This document shows, piece after piece, positions 2,996 to 63,713 of a DNA stretch of 64,000 bases. A model generated the notes under the pieces. It did not search any database. It was not told the DNA's origin and was given only the letters and a program-made list of their open reading frames with translations. The translations under genes and the position numbers were made by a program. The stretch comes from Clostridium sp. Marseille-Q2269. GTDB lineage: Bacteria; Bacillota; Clostridia; Clostridiales; Clostridiaceae. The DNA lies in contig NZ_CALSFS010000003.1 in the NCBI RefSeq assembly GCF_943736985.1, positions 186,001-250,000 of the forward strand, read 5' to 3'. The stretch's first letter is position 1. Each line of letters starts with the position of its first letter.

Positions 2996-3643
2996 ATGAT
3001 AAATACAATAATTTTTGATATGGATGGGGTAATGATAGATACAGAACCATTATCCTTTGAAAGCAGTAAAATCTTATTAAAAATGTATAATAAAGATTAT
3101 ACTGAAGAGTTTCATAAAGCTTGTATGGGTCGTAGCATGGCTGAAGTAATAAAAAGAACTATAAATGAATACCAGTTAAAGGAAAATGAAGAAGATTTAT
3201 TAGAAAAAAGAAATGAAATATATATGAACATTGCTTTAGAAAAAGCAGAACCTATAAATGGTTTATTTGAATTATTGGAGTATATAAAGAATTCAAATAT
3301 AAAATGTGCAGTAGCAACAGGTAGTAACAGAAAAATAGCAGAACTTCTACTAAAAAAATTAGGAATACTAGATTATTTTCAATTTATTTTACCAGGAGAT
3401 GAAATGGAAAAATCAAAGCCAGATCCTTGGCCTTATTTGGAGGTTATGAGAAGATTAAATTCTTTGAGCAAAGAGACAATTATTATGGAGGATTCTATAA
3501 ATGGGATAAAATCAGCCATAGCTGCAGGATGTAATGTTATTGCAATAAATAGTATATGGGAAGATAAGAACACAAAAGAAATAATATCATTTGAAAAAGA
3601 CTTAAAAGGAGTTAAAGATATAATAAGAAGTTTAATAAAATAA
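2996..3643 (+). CDS. HAD-superfamily phosphatase / beta-phosphoglucomutase-like hydrolase
   Basis: A 215-residue cytoplasmic HAD enzyme. Motif I is DMDGVMID at residues 8-15 (Asp8 nucleophile, Asp10 acid/base), motif II is the ATGS near residue 103, motif III is the lysine in EKSKPDP, and motif IV is EDSINGI. The helical cap between motifs I and II makes it subfamily I, like phosphoglycolate phosphatase, beta-phosphoglucomutase and 2-deoxyglucose-6-phosphatase. The true substrate cannot be read from sequence; position between glmM and glmS suggests, but does not prove, a sugar phosphate. The start has an AGGAGAT site 8 nt upstream. Confidence 0.88.
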   Translation: MINTIIFDMDGVMIDTEPLSFESSKILLKMYNKDYTEEFHKACMGRSMAEVIKRTINEYQLKENEEDLLEKRNEIYMNIALEKAEPINGLFELLEYIKNSNIKCAVATGSNRKIAELLLKKLGILDYFQFILPGDEMEKSKPDPWPYLEVMRRLNSLSKETIIMEDSINGIKSAIAAGCNVIAINSIWEDKNTKEIISFEKDLKGVKDIIRSLIK

Positions 3644-3691: not shown

Positions 3692-3720
3692 TTAACAAAC
3701 GAAAATTAAAATGCTATAAT
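3692..3720 (+). promoter_or_regulatory. Predicted sigma-A promoter of glmS
   Basis: TTAACA at 3692-3697 and TATAAT at 3715-3720 have the ideal 17-bp spacer. Transcription should start near 3727, about 25 nt before the ribozyme cleavage site, leaving the short 5' leader typical of glmS ribozymes. Confidence 0.75.
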
Positions 3721-3750
3721 GTATTAGGAAGAAAGTTAAAAGGTTATAAA

Positions 3751-4220
3751 AGCGCCAGAACTTAAGTAATAAACTTATGTAATATATGAATTAATTGATG
3801 GGTATAAAATTCAAAATTTAGAGTAAATAGAAAACTTAGATTCATATCTAAGTAGTTTTATTGACTAAATTGAGTATTGAATACAACATATAGTTTAGTT
3901 CAATATAAATAAGTTTGACAATCTAAATTTAAAATTTGGAGTATATATGGGGAAATTTACATTAGCATCTGAGTAAGTTCCACTAAGCCAAATTAAAAAT
4001 TTGGAGTGTATATAGGAAACTCAGATTAGTATCTGAGTAAGTTCCACTAATACCAAATTAAAAATTTGGAGTGTCACTTAAGTTGACGAGGATATAGGAG
4101 TATCGAAATTTCGGCGGATATCCTATGGGATCTCACAGCCCTAGAAGCTATAATAAAAGTTAGAAGTAATTCTAATTACAAAAAAGCTTTAGTGAGGACT
4201 TTCTTCTTAAATTATTTATA
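3751..4220 (+). ncRNA. glmS ribozyme-riboswitch (glucosamine-6-phosphate activated), with enlarged P1 region
   Basis: The conserved core is split. The 5' part is AGCGCCAGAACTTAAGT at 3751-3767, with self-cleavage expected between A3751 and G3752. The 3' part starts with ACTTAAGTTGACGAGG at 4076 and continues with TATCGAAATTTCGGCGGATA (P3/pseudoknot core) and a P4-like AAAGCTTTAGTGAGGACTTT. The palindromic ACTTAAGT halves at 3760-3767 and 4076-4083 can pair as P1. In known glmS ribozymes, glucosamine-6-phosphate binding triggers cleavage and RNase J decay of the message, a negative feedback on GlmS. The element lies directly before glmS. The 308 nt between the P1 strands is unusual and holds tandem hairpin repeats. 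The 3' end is approximate. Confidence 0.93.
3814..4075 (+). repeat. Tandem imperfect repeats (53-66 bp period) inside the glmS ribozyme P1 loop
   Basis: Copies begin with AAATTTGGAGT or a variant at about 3814, 3867, 3932, 3998 and 4062 (the last truncated), giving steps of 53, 65, 66 and 64 bp. The third and fourth copies are the most alike; the first two are degenerate. Each clear unit can form small hairpins: CTCAGAT/ATCTGAG at 4020-4037, with its homologue CTTAGAT/ATCTAAG at 3836-3853, and CCAAATT/AATTTGG at the unit boundaries. Confidence 0.85.
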
Positions 4221-4241: not shown

Positions 4242-6068
4242 ATGTGCGGAATCGTAGGATACGTAGGATTTAGAAAGGCAACGGATGTAATTGTAGAGGG
4301 ATTGTCAAAATTGGAGTATAGAGGATATGACTCTGCTGGAATTGCTGTTAATGACGGAAAAGAAATAGAATGTCAAAAATACAAAGGTAGATTAAAAGTA
4401 TTAAGTGATCATTTAGAAACTAAGCCTATGGATGGAACTATAGGAATAGGACACACAAGATGGGCTACTCATGGAGTGCCATCTGATGTAAATTCACATC
4501 CACATTTAAATATGGACGAGACAATCGCTGTAGTTCATAATGGTATAATTGAAAATTATATGGAAATAAAAGAATGGTTAATTTCTAAAGGTGTAGAATT
4601 TAAATCAGATACAGATACTGAAGTAATAGCTCATTTAGTTGATCATTATTATAAAGGAGATATATTACAAGCAGTATTTAAAGCTATAAAAAAATTTAGA
4701 GGAGCTTACGCACTAGGAGTAGTTTGTAAGGATGAACCAGAAAAATTAGTAGCTGTAAGAAAAGACAGCCCATTAATAGTAGGAATTGGAGAAAATGAGA
4801 ATTTTATTGCTTCTGACGTACCAGCTATTTTAAAATATACTAGAGATGTATATTTCTTAGATAATGGAGAAGTAGTTACTTTAGAAAAAAACAAAATAAC
4901 AATTTATAATGAAAAAGAAGAACAAGTATCAAAAGAACCTTGTCATGTAATGTGGGATGTAGAAGCAGCATCTAAAGGTGGATATGATCACTTCATGATA
5001 AAAGAAATAAATGAACAACCAACAGGTATAAAAGAAACTTTAGTTAGAAGATTAGATGAAAATGGTAAGATTAAATTAGATGATATAAAATTAACAAAAG
5101 AAGATTTAGATGATATAAATAAAGTTTATATCGTTGCTTGTGGAACTGCATATAATGCTGGAATAACAGGAAGGTATGCTATTGAAAGATTTGCAAAAAT
5201 AGCTGTAGAAACAGATGTGGCTTCAGAATTTAGATATAGAAATCCATTTATAGACCATAAAACATTAATTATTGTTGTAAGTCAATCAGGGGAAACAGCA
5301 GATACTTTAGCAGTTGTAAGAGAAGGAAAAGAAAAAGGAGCTAGAGTTTTAGCTATTACTAATGTTGTAGGTTCTTCTATAGCGAGAGAATCAGATGATG
5401 TATTCTATACTTGGGCAGGTCCTGAAGTAGCAGTTGCATCAACTAAAGCATATACAACTCAACTTGTAGCATTGTATATGATAGCACTAGATATGGGACT
5501 TAAGAGAGGAACAATCACTGAAGAGTATTATAATAATATAATCAATGAATTAAAACTTATACCTGAAAAAGTACAAAAAATACTTGATCAACATGATGAA
5601 ATAAAAGAAATAGCAAATGAGATAAAAGATAAAGAACATGCATTTTATATAGGAAGAGGTTTAGACTATAACCTTTCATTAGAAGGTTCTTTAAAAATAA
5701 AAGAAATATCTTATATGCATGCAGAAGCTTTTGCTGCAGGTGAATTAAAACATGGTACTATAGCTCTTATTGAAGAAGAAACACCAGTTGTAGCTACAAT
5801 GACTCAAACAGAATTATTTGAGAAAAGTGTTTCTAATATAAAAGAAGTTAAATCAAGAGGAGCACATGTTATTGCTATAACTCAAGAAGGAAACAAAGAA
5901 GTAGAACAAGTAGCAGATAGAGTAATTTATATACCAAGAACAGAGGATATATTACAAACAATCATTGCTGTAGTTCCTCATCAATTATTAGCATATTATG
6001 TGGCAGTATTAAAAGGCCGTGATGTGGATAAGCCAAGAAATTTAGCTAAATCTGTTACAGTTGAATAA
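4242..6068 (+). CDS. glmS: Glutamine-fructose-6-phosphate aminotransferase GlmS
   Basis: GlmS makes glucosamine-6-phosphate from fructose-6-phosphate and glutamine, the committed step of amino-sugar and peptidoglycan precursor synthesis. The 608-residue protein has the expected order: an N-terminal class II glutamine amidotransferase domain with Cys2 as nucleophile (MCGIVGYVG), HTRWATHG and NGIIEN motifs, then two SIS domains with CGTAYNAG near residue 300 and SQSGETADT near 349, ending in the invariant KPRNLAKSVTVE tail. The ATG has a clear AAGGAGG site. The glmS ribozyme upstream indicates feedback by its own product. It is transcribed alone, with a hairpin after it. Confidence 0.98.
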   Translation: MCGIVGYVGFRKATDVIVEGLSKLEYRGYDSAGIAVNDGKEIECQKYKGRLKVLSDHLETKPMDGTIGIGHTRWATHGVPSDVNSHPHLNMDETIAVVHNGIIENYMEIKEWLISKGVEFKSDTDTEVIAHLVDHYYKGDILQAVFKAIKKFRGAYALGVVCKDEPEKLVAVRKDSPLIVGIGENENFIASDVPAILKYTRDVYFLDNGEVVTLEKNKITIYNEKEEQVSKEPCHVMWDVEAASKGGYDHFMIKEINEQPTGIKETLVRRLDENGKIKLDDIKLTKEDLDDINKVYIVACGTAYNAGITGRYAIERFAKIAVETDVASEFRYRNPFIDHKTLIIVVSQSGETADTLAVVREGKEKGARVLAITNVVGSSIARESDDVFYTWAGPEVAVASTKAYTTQLVALYMIALDMGLKRGTITEEYYNNIINELKLIPEKVQKILDQHDEIKEIANEIKDKEHAFYIGRGLDYNLSLEGSLKIKEISYMHAEAFAAGELKHGTIALIEEETPVVATMTQTELFEKSVSNIKEVKSRGAHVIAITQEGNKEVEQVADRVIYIPRTEDILQTIIAVVPHQLLAYYVAVLKGRDVDKPRNLAKSVTVE

Positions 6069-9315: not shown

Positions 9316-9430
9316 ACACACAACTTAATACTAACTTTATACACAATTAAAAAGTAACACAACTTAAGATTAACTTTATACACAATTAAGAAATAATGCA
9401 CAACTTAAATAAAACTTTATACAAAATACA
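9316..9430 (+). repeat. Short tandem repeat downstream of rpsD (39-41 bp, about 2.7 copies)
   Basis: The unit CACAACTTAA followed by ACTTTATACACAATTAA recurs starting at about 9319, 9358 and 9399, the last copy incomplete. There is no protein frame across it and no terminator-like hairpin. It may be transcribed as the rpsD 3' UTR. Confidence 0.75.
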
Positions 9431-9481
9431 AGTATCTTACGGTCATAATTATAAATTGGCTTTAGATAAGAGGTATGCTAT

Positions 9482-13270: not shown

Positions 13271-13292
13271 TATTAATAAATTAAATATGGAT

Positions 13293-13403
13293 TCTTATCC
13301 AGAGAGGCTGAGGGACTGGCCCTATGAAGCCCGGCAACCACTAATGTAATTATTTTTACTTTAAACGGTGCTAATTCCAGCAGGTTAAACCTGGTAGATA
13401 AGA
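13293..13403 (+). ncRNA. SAM-I (S-box) riboswitch
   Basis: The S-box core is clear: TCTTATCCAGAGAGGCTGAGG at its 5' side, GCCCGGCAACC, the kink-turn/pseudoknot segments, GGTGCTAATTCC and the closing GATAAGA. P1 is TCTTATC (13293-13299) with GATAAGA (13397-13403). S-adenosylmethionine binding stabilises P1 and turns off the downstream gene. This marks the following transporter as part of the methionine/SAM regulon. Confidence 0.97.
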
Positions 13404-13418
13404 TATAGAGGAAATCCA

Positions 13419-20778: not shown

Positions 20779-21603
20779 ATGAAGAATAACATAGAACAGC
20801 TAAAAGATATGGCTAAAGTTATTAGAAAAGACATAGTTTCAATGTTAACTGAATCTGCTTCTGGACATCCAGGCGGTTCCCTATCAGCAGTAGAGATATT
20901 GACTGCTTTATATTTTAATGAAATGAATATAGATCCTAGTAATGCTAGGGATTTAAATAGGGACAGATTTGTTCTTTCTAAAGGACATGCTGCTCCAGTA
21001 CTATACAGTGTTTTGGCTAGAAGAGGATATTTTAATCCAGAAGAGCTAAAAACTTTAAGAAAAATTGGATCAATATTACAAGGACATCCAAATATGAATG
21101 ATGTTCCAGGTGTAGATATGTCAACAGGATCATTAGGACAAGGAATATCAACAGCAGTTGGTATGGCTTTGGCTGGTAAAATTGATGAAAAAGATTACAG
21201 AGTATATACTTTATTAGGGGATGGAGAATTAGAAGAAGGACAAGTTTGGGAAGCAACTATGGCAGCAGCTCATTACAAATTAGATAATATGACTGCTTTT
21301 GTAGATTATAATGGATTACAAATAGATGGACCTTGTAGTGAAGTTATGTCAGCAGAACCTATAGCAGATAAATTTAGAACTTTTAATTGGAGTGTTATAG
21401 AAATAGATGGACATGATTTTGATGCTATATTAAATGCTATTGAAAGTGCTAAAAATACTAAAGGAAAACCAACTATGATAGTATGCAAAACTATAAAAGG
21501 TAAGGGTGTTTCCTTTATGGAAAATGAAGCTGGATGGCATGGTAAAGCACCAAGTGCTGAAGAATGTAAAAAAGCTTTATGTGAAATAGGAGGTGACAAA
21601 TAA
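20779..21603 (+). CDS. Transketolase, N-terminal (TPP-binding) subunit, copy 1
   Basis: A 274-residue subunit carrying the TPP-pyrophosphate half of a split transketolase, which moves two-carbon ketol units between sugar phosphates in the non-oxidative pentose phosphate pathway. It shows the SASGHPGGSLS start, LSKGHAAPVLYSVLA, MSTGSLGQGIS and the TPP motif LLGDGELEEGQVWEA followed by DYNGLQIDG. The C-terminal half is the next gene; their stop and start are adjacent (21603 shared region). The pair is about as long as one full transketolase. A close second copy lies at 61975-63713. AGGAGGT-like site TTGGAGG is 8 nt upstream. Confidence 0.93.
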   Translation: MKNNIEQLKDMAKVIRKDIVSMLTESASGHPGGSLSAVEILTALYFNEMNIDPSNARDLNRDRFVLSKGHAAPVLYSVLARRGYFNPEELKTLRKIGSILQGHPNMNDVPGVDMSTGSLGQGISTAVGMALAGKIDEKDYRVYTLLGDGELEEGQVWEATMAAAHYKLDNMTAFVDYNGLQIDGPCSEVMSAEPIADKFRTFNWSVIEIDGHDFDAILNAIESAKNTKGKPTMIVCKTIKGKGVSFMENEAGWHGKAPSAEECKKALCEIGGDK

Positions 21604-22544
21604 TGGGGGTTAAAATAGCAACAAGAGAGGCATACGGAAAGACATTAGCTAAATTGGCAGAAGAAAATTCAAATGTAGTAGTCTTAGATGCAGATCTTTC
21701 AAAATCTACTAAAACTGCAGATTTTAAAAAGGTTTGTCCAGAAAGATTTATAAATGTAGGAATAGCTGAAGCTAATTTGATGGGAATAGCTGCAGGATTG
21801 TCAACTTGTGGTAAGATTCCTTTTGCTAGTACTTTTGCAATGTTTGCTACAGGAAGAGCTTTTGAGCAAATAAGAAATTCAATATGTTATCCAAACTTAA
21901 ATGTTAAAGTATGCGCAACACATGCAGGGGTTACAGTAGGAGAAGATGGTGCATCTCATCAATCTATTGAAGATATATCTTTAATGAGAAGCATACCAAA
22001 TATGACAGTTATTTGTCCAAGTGATGCAGCAGAAACAGAAGCTGCAATAAGAGCTATAGCAGAATATAATGGACCATGTTATGTAAGATTAGGAAGATCT
22101 GGGGTTCCAGTTATAAATGATAACCAAGAATATAAATTTGAAATAGGAAAAGGAATAAAATTAAGAGAAGGAAAAGAAGCCACTATAATAGCTACAGGAA
22201 TAATGGTAGATGCAGCTTTAGAAGCTTATAATATGTTAGCAGAAGAAGGTATAAAAGTAAATGTTATAAACATACATACTATAAAACCTATAGATAAGGA
22301 AATTATTATAGATGCTGCTAGAAAAACTGGTGTAGTGATTACAGCGGAAGAACATAGCATAATAGGTGGATTAGGATCAACTGTATGCGAAGTTTTAAGT
22401 GAAAATCATCCAGTACCAGTTTTAAGGGTTGGAATAAAGGATGTATTTGGTCAAAGTGGTAAGCCAGCAGAGCTATTAAAAAAATATTGTTTAACAGCAG
22501 ATGATATAGTAAAAGCCGTAAAAAAAGGATTAAAATTAAAATAG
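21603..22544 (+). CDS. Transketolase, C-terminal subunit, copy 1
   Basis: The 313-residue partner holds the pyrimidine-binding and C-terminal domains. Motifs: ATREAYGKTLAKLAEE, the DADLSKST segment, the catalytic Glu in NVGIAEANLMGIAAGL that activates TPP, the phosphate/substrate loop GVTVGEDGASHQSIEDISLMR, and the C-terminal TAEEHSIIGGLGS and DVFGQSGKP. It begins at the last base of the N-subunit stop (TAATG), so the two are co-translated. A terminator follows. Split transketolases are normal in clostridia and archaea; this pair is the likely housekeeping one because it stands outside the catabolic operon. Confidence 0.93.
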   Translation: MGVKIATREAYGKTLAKLAEENSNVVVLDADLSKSTKTADFKKVCPERFINVGIAEANLMGIAAGLSTCGKIPFASTFAMFATGRAFEQIRNSICYPNLNVKVCATHAGVTVGEDGASHQSIEDISLMRSIPNMTVICPSDAAETEAAIRAIAEYNGPCYVRLGRSGVPVINDNQEYKFEIGKGIKLREGKEATIIATGIMVDAALEAYNMLAEEGIKVNVINIHTIKPIDKEIIIDAARKTGVVITAEEHSIIGGLGSTVCEVLSENHPVPVLRVGIKDVFGQSGKPAELLKKYCLTADDIVKAVKKGLKLK

Positions 22545-30241: not shown

Positions 30242-33064
<2,823 letters not shown>

Positions 33065-61974: not shown

Positions 61975-62796
61975 TTGAATACAAAAATGTTAAAAGAAAT
62001 TGCAACTAATATAAGAATAGATATTATAGAAATGCTAGCAGTAGCGAAATCAGGACATCCAGGTGGATCATTATCAATAGCAGATATTCTAACAGTATTG
62101 TACTTTGAAGAAATGAACATAAAGGTAGAAGAACCTAAGTGGGAAGATAGAGATAGACTTGTATTATCAAAAGGACATGCAGCACCAGCTCTTTACGCAG
62201 CTTTAGCAGAAAGAGGGTATTTTCCAAAAGAAGAACTTAAATCATTAAGAAAATTTAAATCAATACTTCAAGGACATCCAGACATGAAAAAAACTCCAGG
62301 AGTAGATATGTCTACAGGTTCATTAGGACAAGGATTATCAGCAGCTAATGGAATAGCTTTAGCAGGAAAATTAGATAATAAATCTTATAGAGTATATACA
62401 ATAATAGGAGATGGAGAGCTTCAAGAAGGACAAATATGGGAAGCAGCTATGAGCACAGCTCATTATAAATTGGACAACGTAGTAGCATTTGTAGATTTGA
62501 ATGGGTTACAAATAGATGGATCAAACGAAGAAGTTATGAGGGTAAGTCCAGTAGATAAGAAGTTTGAAGCTTTTGGATGGAATGTACTAGTTATAAACGG
62601 ACATAATTTAGAAGAAATAAAAGATGCTTTAACTAAAGCTAAAGAAGTTAAAGGAAGACCAACCGCAATAATAGCTAACACAGTAAAAGGAAAAGGAGTT
62701 TCTTTTATGGAAAATCAAGCCTCCTGGCATGGAACGGCACCAAATGAAGAGGAAAAAGTTAAAGCTCTAAGTGAATTAAAAGGAGGAGAAGAATAA
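61975..62796 (+). CDS. Transketolase, N-terminal subunit, copy 2
   Basis: A 273-residue TPP-binding half of a split transketolase, strongly similar to the copy at 20779: KSGHPGGSLSIADILTVLYFEEMNI, SKGHAAPALYAALAERGYFPKEELK, GVDMSTGSLGQGLS and GDGELQEGQIWEAAM all recur. TTG 61975 is preferred, 9 nt after GAGGG and giving the same length as copy 1; ATG 61987 is also possible. It sits in the aldolase operon, so it probably handles the aldehyde or sugar-phosphate products there. Its codon use is the local AGA style, unlike the first PTS genes. Confidence 0.92.
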   Translation: MNTKMLKEIATNIRIDIIEMLAVAKSGHPGGSLSIADILTVLYFEEMNIKVEEPKWEDRDRLVLSKGHAAPALYAALAERGYFPKEELKSLRKFKSILQGHPDMKKTPGVDMSTGSLGQGLSAANGIALAGKLDNKSYRVYTIIGDGELQEGQIWEAAMSTAHYKLDNVVAFVDLNGLQIDGSNEEVMRVSPVDKKFEAFGWNVLVINGHNLEEIKDALTKAKEVKGRPTAIIANTVKGKGVSFMENQASWHGTAPNEEEKVKALSELKGGEE

Positions 62797-63713
62797 TGAA
62801 TATAGCAACAAGAGAAGCTTATGGAGAAGCATTAAAAGAATTAGCATCAAATGAAAAGGTAGTAGTATTAGATGCAGACCTAGCAAAAGCAACTAAGAGT
62901 ATAGAATTTAAAAAAGTAGCACCAGAAAGATTCTTTGATATGGGAATAGCAGAAGGAGATATGATGGGAACAGCAGCAGGATTAGCCACATGTGGAAAGA
63001 TACCATTTGCAACAACTTTTGCAATGTTTGCAGCTGGAAGAGCTTTTGAACAAATAAGAAATTCAGTAGCTTATCCAAAGTTAAATGTAAAAATAGCGGT
63101 AACTCACGCAGGGGTAACAGTAGGAGAGGATGGAGGAAGCCATCAAGCTATAGAAGATATATCTTTAATGAGAGGTATACCAAATATGGTGGTTATAAAT
63201 CCATCAGATGCAGTAGAAGCAAAAAAGGTAGTATTTGCAGCGGCTGAATATTATGGACCAGTGTATATAAGATTGGGAAGAGCAGCAACACCTGTAATTC
63301 ATGATGAAAGCTATGAATTCAAAATAGGAAAAGGTGAAGTCTTAAGAAAAGGAAAAGATGTAGTTATAGTTGCAACAGGAATAATGGTAGCTAAAGCTTT
63401 AGAAGCAGCAGAAACTTTAAGCAAAGAAAACATAGAAGCAACAGTAGTAAATATACCAACTATAAAACCATTAGATAATGAACTTATAGTAAGTTTAGCT
63501 AAAAATATAGGTAAAATAGTTACAGCTGAAGAACACAGCATAATAGGGGGGCTAGGTTCAGCAGTAGCAGAACTACTAGCAGAGGAATGTTCAGCTAAAC
63601 TTAAGAGAATAGGACTTAAGGATGTATTTGGACAATCAGGAACTCCAGATGCTTTATTACAACATTATGGATTAACTGCAAAAGATATAGTTGAAACAGC
63701 TAAAGCACTTTAG
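62796..63713 (+). CDS. Transketolase, C-terminal subunit, copy 2
   Basis: A 305-residue partner of the preceding subunit, with MGIAEGDMMGTAAGLATCGK containing the TPP-activating Glu, the phosphate loop GVTVGEDGGSHQAIEDISLMR and the tail TAEEHSIIGGLGSAVAELLAEE and DVFGQSGTPDALL. It overlaps the N-subunit stop by one base (TAATG), as in copy 1. The catalytic residues agree between copies; a NANLMG-to-EGDMMG difference near the active-site Glu is the kind of change that could alter substrate choice. A phosphohexomutase gene follows by 26 nt. Confidence 0.92.
   Translation: MNIATREAYGEALKELASNEKVVVLDADLAKATKSIEFKKVAPERFFDMGIAEGDMMGTAAGLATCGKIPFATTFAMFAAGRAFEQIRNSVAYPKLNVKIAVTHAGVTVGEDGGSHQAIEDISLMRGIPNMVVINPSDAVEAKKVVFAAAEYYGPVYIRLGRAATPVIHDESYEFKIGKGEVLRKGKDVVIVATGIMVAKALEAAETLSKENIEATVVNIPTIKPLDNELIVSLAKNIGKIVTAEEHSIIGGLGSAVAELLAEECSAKLKRIGLKDVFGQSGTPDALLQHYGLTAKDIVETAKAL

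Follow-up and report, generated by a model that had tools for sequence, protein, structure and literature searches.

What keeps the two strands of P1 together in a glmS ribozyme when 308 nt lie between them, and where does the intervening sequence come from? We addressed this question in a 64,000-nucleotide stretch of DNA (the window). An Rfam covariance search identified the leader that adjoins glmS on its upstream side (3740-4210) as a glmS ribozyme (RF00234, 4051-4199; 59.6 bits against a gathering threshold of 37), bearing out the sequence-only reading, which had described such a ribozyme with an unusually long repeat array in P1. Because the P1 strands are 308 nt apart, the RF00234 alignment was wrong in its 5' half: the P1 3' strand was paired with the last repeat, and the cleavage site 300 nt upstream was missed. 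The 5' half was also misplaced in Sporosalibacterium faouarense (locus L058). This is a practical fault, as the Rfam placement would annotate the cleavage site about 300 nt too far downstream. GCGCC occurs once between 3600 and 4240, at 3752, and P1 comes next, placing the cleavage site by homology at A3751/G3752, where it had already been put. The roles of AGCGCC (3751-3756) in cleavage and as a pseudoknot strand are assigned from what is known of the glmS family. The promoter-like site further upstream is suggestive only, since the region contains four such sites against 4.5 expected from shuffles. No terminator was found within the array. In the GCGCC search, the unit counts and the GlmM/core comparison, the slice taken from the window was shifted by one base where the core starts.

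Features of the glmS leader and gene in the window (unit boundaries approximate where stated)
Feature	Position	Strand	Basis or remarks
Sigma-70-like promoter, TTAACA-17-TATAAT, extended TG	3692-3720	+	11/12 consensus positions
AGCGCC: cleavage site A3751/G3752 (by homology) and 5' strand of core pseudoknot	3751-3756	+	single GCGCC
P1 5' strand ACTTAAGT	3760-3767	+	pairs with 4076-4083; six inner pairs, mean probability 0.993
308-nt tandem array between P1 strands	3768-4075	+	sequence read, Tandem Repeats Finder, unit comparison
Diverged unit 1, hairpin A intact (ACTTAGAT..ATCTAAGT, 3834-3853)	3827-3884	+	boundaries approximate, assigned by us
Diverged unit 2, degenerate core hairpin 3923-3939	3885-3941	+	core-motif matches; boundaries approximate
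Unit 3, exact core hairpin CCAAATTAAAAATTTGG 3988-4004	3942-4006	+	R1 partial match, E = 0.003
Unit 4 (terminal), hairpin A (ACTCAGAT..ATCTGAGT) and hairpin B, core 4053-4069	4007-4080	+	core motif, R1
Full-length R1 match	4038-4080	+	37.4 bits, E = 2.5e-8
P1 3' strand ACTTAAGT	4076-4083	+	perfect 8-bp P1
Ribozyme core and P3/P4 domain	4085-4199	+	RF00234 alignment
glmS, glutamine--fructose-6-phosphate transaminase	4242-6068	+	TIGR01135, 820.8 bits

Tandem Repeats Finder reported a 65-nt unit in 2.3 copies at 3925-4074 with 88% matches, and two older, diverged units lie 5' of this block, giving an array of about four units. Units in the window are 57-74 nt long and consist of a variable hairpin A and a conserved hairpin B with the core CCAAAT(Y)AAA(R)ATTTGG; by a simple motif, the hairpin cores start near 3806, 3924, 3989 and 4054. 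The earlier count of four to five units was reasonable, although close similarity is limited to the last two (81% alike over 52 nt, ungapped). AAATTTGGAGT starts at 3932, 3997 and 4062, a spacing of exactly 65 nt; the outer two starts had been read correctly, and the middle one, given as 3998, was off by one. When up to three mismatches were allowed, CCAAATTAAAAATTTGG matched three sites, each on both strands (six matches), all within the array. None of 100 shuffles equalled this count, indicating that the array is not a product of chance. Folding of the 471-nt leader gave a z-score of -4.8.

In L058, P1 is also a repeat array and contains the exact 17-mer CCAAATTAAAAATTTGG; this 17-mer was absent from the other 79 of 80 GlmS loci. 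Across the order of L058, the pattern CCAAATYAAARATTTGG was found in 47 of 249 genomes and its reversed control once, and some of the matches belong to another element with different flanks. We built a covariance model, R1, from 13 dispersed copies (17 picked by motif, of which four were removed as duplicates, one variant and one deletion), keeping the window and P1 copies out. Aligned, the 13 copies form a 42-nt hairpin, and in 6 of its 17 pairs both sides have changed. Against R1, whose E-values are rough, the terminal unit of the window alone matched in full length, the core at 3988-4004 matched partially and the older units fell below the threshold. The full-length match ends 5 nt into the P1 3' strand. 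Outside the array, nothing in the 64-kb window scored better than 13.1 bits (E = 0.61).

We then compared P1 among relatives. RF00234 was present in 135 of the 249 genomes of the order of L058, and 131 of these leaders were measured from AGCGCC to GACGAGG (those of G035, G093, G144 and G157 were left out). The P1 region was shorter than 60 nt in 128 of the 131, with a median of 15 nt; where examined, P1 is not equally long in most clostridia, the finding that would have spoken against an unusual insertion. The three leaders of at least 60 nt were those of G251 (97 nt), G250 (233 nt) and G001 (292 nt; the genome of L058), and the GlmS proteins of these genomes form one clade. In the order of Alkalithermobacter, RF00234 was present in 171 of 393 genomes; among 27 leaders (the 22 weakest and five long ones) the longest P1 region was 133 nt, and R1 found no element in these 27. 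P1 length was obtained for 73 of the 80 GlmS loci. L071 (564 nt) was discarded, having no glmS match, and the long P1 regions of L049, L275-L279 and L364 contained no element by R1.

The class was scanned with a junction pattern consisting of ATTTGG, 3-16 nt, and then the P1 3' strand and core. The class sample comprised 391 genomes, and 10 of them had the pattern, namely G001 and nine new ones; the reversed control gave none among those listed. All nine, selected by the junction pattern itself, are glmS leaders, with AGCGC-to-GACGAGG spans of 57, 58, 111, 159, 187, 214, 241, 311 and 334 nt. The corresponding span is 334 nt (328 + 6) in the window and 103, 239 and 298 nt in three Sporosalibacterium-like genomes. 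The P1 loops of L058, L175 and L176 matched R1, as did the P1 loop in each of the nine further genomes (26.8-37.3 bits, E from 1.3e-6 to 0.0024). As the sequence-only reading had anticipated, unit number varies among related leaders, from one to about four over spans of 57 to 334 nt; these counts rest on a simple motif, which scores two in L175 where three are seen by eye. In the two shortest leaders, L410 and L408, the entire P1 stem-loop is one element-like hairpin flanked by ACTTAAGT strands, with weak R1 scores (26.8 and 29.3 bits, E = 0.0024 and 3.2e-4). The units are copies of a dispersed palindromic element, and in single-unit relatives this element is the P1 stem-loop, a point absent from the earlier reading. 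The suggestion that the array is still copying itself was unsupported in the window, where the last two units are 81-88% alike, but it fits L407, where one stretch of 61 bp is the same in two units and a third unit shows two differences, pointing to recent expansion there.

R1-positive genomes numbered 69 of 249 in the order of L058, 48 of 393 sampled in the order of Alkalithermobacter and all nine of the further genomes, 126 in total. Copy numbers per genome are lower bounds, with 16-26 candidates scored in each. With glmS copies counted and E no higher than 0.01, each of the nine further genomes gave 2-48 R1 matches; in G888 the sole match outside glmS was weak (E = 0.002). Sixty loci around R1 matches were used to compare the copies with open reading frames (ORFs); 8 could not be placed and 52 were used, one of them (L219) a glmS copy. 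The copies avoid ORFs: 6 of the 52 lay within an ORF of at least 80 aa, whereas 1379 of 1950 positions drawn at random did so. G916 and G680 are examples of genomes with copies of the P1 subtype (TAAGTTCN..TCACTTA) at places other than glmS. Tandem arrays of the element were also found away from glmS, indicating that expansion is a property of the element.

In seven copy-bearing loci, Rfam matched glmS only, plus one sub-threshold match beyond the copies, and gave no match for the element. Mobilisation by a RAYT transposase was considered and rejected: all 16 of the element-rich genomes had PF01797, as did 13 of the 16 that were element-free, and linkage was absent. Twenty Y1-domain loci from nine element-rich genomes yielded one weak R1 match, 1.6 kb away, and no linkage of the element to a transposase was found. 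A plasmid or phage origin was likewise dropped, as there was no match. A different repeat, with the core CCAAATC-AAA-GATTTGG and other flanks (often GACCTAC .. GTTAGG), was seen in L096-L098, L103-L124, L130-L133 and L141; this repeat is frequent among the small genomes belonging to the order of L058. In G250 (L225-L231), near-identical element copies are followed by roughly 50-60 further conserved nt, which suggests a longer mobile unit.

Several other features of the window were recorded. A HAD-family phosphatase gene (2996-3643) lies between glmM and glmS; tblastn (E 1e-8) found none in 17 relative loci, 12 of them showing glmM. A 39-nt AT-rich repeat in three tandem copies (9318-9436) lies just downstream of rpsD. 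A SAM riboswitch (13292-13404, 85.6 bits) precedes an ORF whose best NCBIfam match, below the cutoff, is the NhaC Na+/H+ antiporter. A two-ORF region is duplicated 41 kb apart (20957-22225 and 62147-63406) at 74-78% DNA identity, and its protein presumably resembles a split transketolase.

The affinities of the glmS coding gene (window 4242-6068) were set against those of GlmM (1484-2845) and UvrA (30242-33064). Window UvrA was 75-79% identical to that of G932, G901, G680 and G888 (four of the nine), 70% to that of G001 and 68% to those of G005 and G004 (Tepidibacter and Alkalithermobacter). GlmM was 71-77% identical to the proteins encoded beside glmS in G901, G680, G932 and G836, against 60-64% in eight other loci. 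These two markers cover five of the nine genomes, neither having come from G798, G916, G948 or G980. Window GlmS, in contrast, was about 74-76% identical to the Alkalithermobacter/Tepidibacter proteins and 59-65% to those of the nine genomes. In the GlmS tree the nine group together and the window stands apart; the first tree was built without L011, L012, L017, L018, L037, L069 and L078-L080, and a later one also without L024, L036, L065, L071 and G250. With GlmS nearest Tepidibacter/Alkalithermobacter, and GlmM and UvrA nearest the tested members of the nine-genome group, the window glmS coding gene is probably foreign. Its P1 array is of the nine-genome-group type, the terminal unit having CACT/AGTG in common with L413, and the ribozyme core is equally near both sides (0.645 to L410 and to L001). 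On the GlmS tree the P1 element falls into three groups, but their value for counting origins is weakened, since UvrA and GlmM put the window with the nine-genome group and GlmS does not. The element is of subtype I in the Sporosalibacterium group and of subtype II in the window group, which favours, but does not prove, separate recruitment.

We aligned terminal units in eight rows (alignment A3, unfitted; L408, with a unit of another shape, was left out). All 120 of 120 cells in 15 pairs were standard pairs, and four pairs had changed on both sides. In 500 shuffles, none reached the share paired, the number of cells changed or the covariation score, 15 reached the number of pairs changed and 296 reached the further pair types. 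When the partners were slid, pairing fell to at most 52%. This covariation may reflect the element's own constraint rather than ribozyme function.

Folding was predicted without pseudoknots or cotranscriptional kinetics. Although 308 nt of loop intervene, the six inner P1 pairs of the window had a mean probability of 0.993; after dinucleotide shuffling of the array the mean was 0.26, and 0 of 150 shuffles reached the native level. Native P1 probabilities in L058, L175 and L176 were 0.995, 0.977 and 0.992, values matched by 2 of 70, 6 of 90 and 6 of 150 shuffles. In L405-L413 they were, in order, 0.968, 0.994, 0.985, 0.996, 0.945, 0.997, 0.803, 0.983 and 0.994, reached by 7/40, 15/30, 10/30, 3/60, 12/40, 0/60, 8/60, 4/40 and 4/30 shuffles. 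The native value was at least 0.945 in 12 of 13 leaders, L411 being the lowest. The in silico evidence that the array closes P1 is clear for the window; in several relatives the difference from shuffled arrays is less distinct.

The explanation we favour, with a probability of roughly 70%, is that in this leader the glmS ribozyme core is intact and P1 consists of expanded tandem copies of a dispersed palindrome that is most likely tolerated, ribozyme action being retained. In two relatives P1 is a single element, and in the window and others expansion within P1 would have brought it to about four units; we infer that this expansion took place by tandem duplication. The transcript would start near 3727 from the promoter-like site, so that the cleavage site, then the array and then the core would be synthesized in that order. 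As the units are self-complementary and their arms interchangeable, the array would fold on itself and let the P1 strands meet. Cleavage should therefore survive, perhaps more slowly. Across the 334 nt that separate them, the downstream core could still contact the cleavage site, and it could still respond to GlcN6P. After cleavage, the array would lie near the 5' end of the glmS mRNA, which would then be degraded. P1 is most likely a helix that tolerates changes of length, and the array would at most modestly affect how fast the leader folds or how the cleaved mRNA decays. The array may have a regulatory role, but none of the data call for one.

One form of regulation would be a copy-number rheostat, in which P1 and the terminal unit offer alternative pairings for the P1 3' strand and the array length tunes cleavage and glmS expression. 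The units carry P1-like arms (TAAGT/ACTTA), the terminal unit shares 5 nt with the P1 3' strand in four leaders (window, L058, L175 and L176), species differ in unit number, and P1 reaches only 0.80 in L411. Alternative closed states can be computed, in which the 5 nt needed by P1 are paired in the outer stem of the terminal unit. The P1-closed state was favoured nonetheless, by 6.2 kcal/mol in the window, 12.6 in L058, 5.0 in L175 and 3.1 in L176, also when the leaders were truncated before the core. Moreover, element arrays occur away from glmS, so expansion needs no role in the ribozyme. We consider this explanation unlikely. It is quite improbable that the P1 array behaves like a contingency locus, with slippage or recombination altering the unit number and thus the self-cleavage rate or the GlcN6P threshold; if it did, it would set cell-wall precursor synthesis heritably but reversibly.

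A landing platform is another candidate: a protein or an antisense RNA would bind the array and so modulate the ribozyme or protect the cleaved mRNA. The hairpins are repeated and covarying with a near-invariant core, and the array would lie near the 5' end of the cleaved mRNA. However, the same core is dispersed in many genomes, mostly outside ORFs, and its conservation is thus not specific to glmS, which leaves a platform very doubtful. An ordinary neutral insertion of unrelated low-complexity AT-rich sequence, as the two diverged 5' units and the element-free P1 regions of up to 133 nt (L049, L364) might suggest, is barely credible given the full-length R1 match, the shared exact 17-mer, the covariation and the like terminal units of relatives.

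Under the favoured explanation of a tolerated palindrome array, a metabolite-sensing ribozyme of an essential gene is partly made of a selfish-looking repeat. The natural variants, with one to about four units, make the effect of P1 length on cleavage measurable with native sequences.

Compared with the glmS ribozymes of RF00234, the window leader has the same core, cleavage motif, P1 and place upstream of glmS and differs in its P1 loop, a 308-nt array where 128 of 131 leaders of one order have less than 60 nt. REP/BIME sequences with RAYT transposases are short imperfect palindromes, mostly outside ORFs, multi-copy and sometimes tandem; the glmS element is alike in shape, copy number and non-ORF placement but, with one weak R1 match in 20 Y1-domain loci, showed no Y1/RAYT linkage. 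Vioque reportedly described STRR repeats in cyanobacterial RNase P RNA in 1997 (cited in PMC2858038). STRR units are heptanucleotides; these too are tandem repeats inside a ribozyme, whereas the glmS units are palindromic and 57-74 nt long. Precedents for repeats in structured RNA thus exist in RNase P RNA and tmRNA, and for glmS none appeared in the literature searched: no description of a repeat array in P1 was found in the titles and abstracts searched, the main surveys (McCown 2011, 2012) lying outside that search, and the novelty of the array is provisional. P1 is described as nucleating the double pseudoknot of the glmS ribozyme (PMC7125110) and also provides the receptor for docking of the L4 tetraloop (PMC11602151), and cleaved glmS mRNA is subsequently degraded (PMC11477304). 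The Rickettsia palindromic elements sit in tmRNA and RNase P RNA and were judged possibly neutral (PMC2229807). Both cases place dispersed palindromes inside a catalytic or structured RNA; the Rickettsia case involves another element and another ribozyme, whereas in glmS the copies are tandem, variable in number and placed within one helix.
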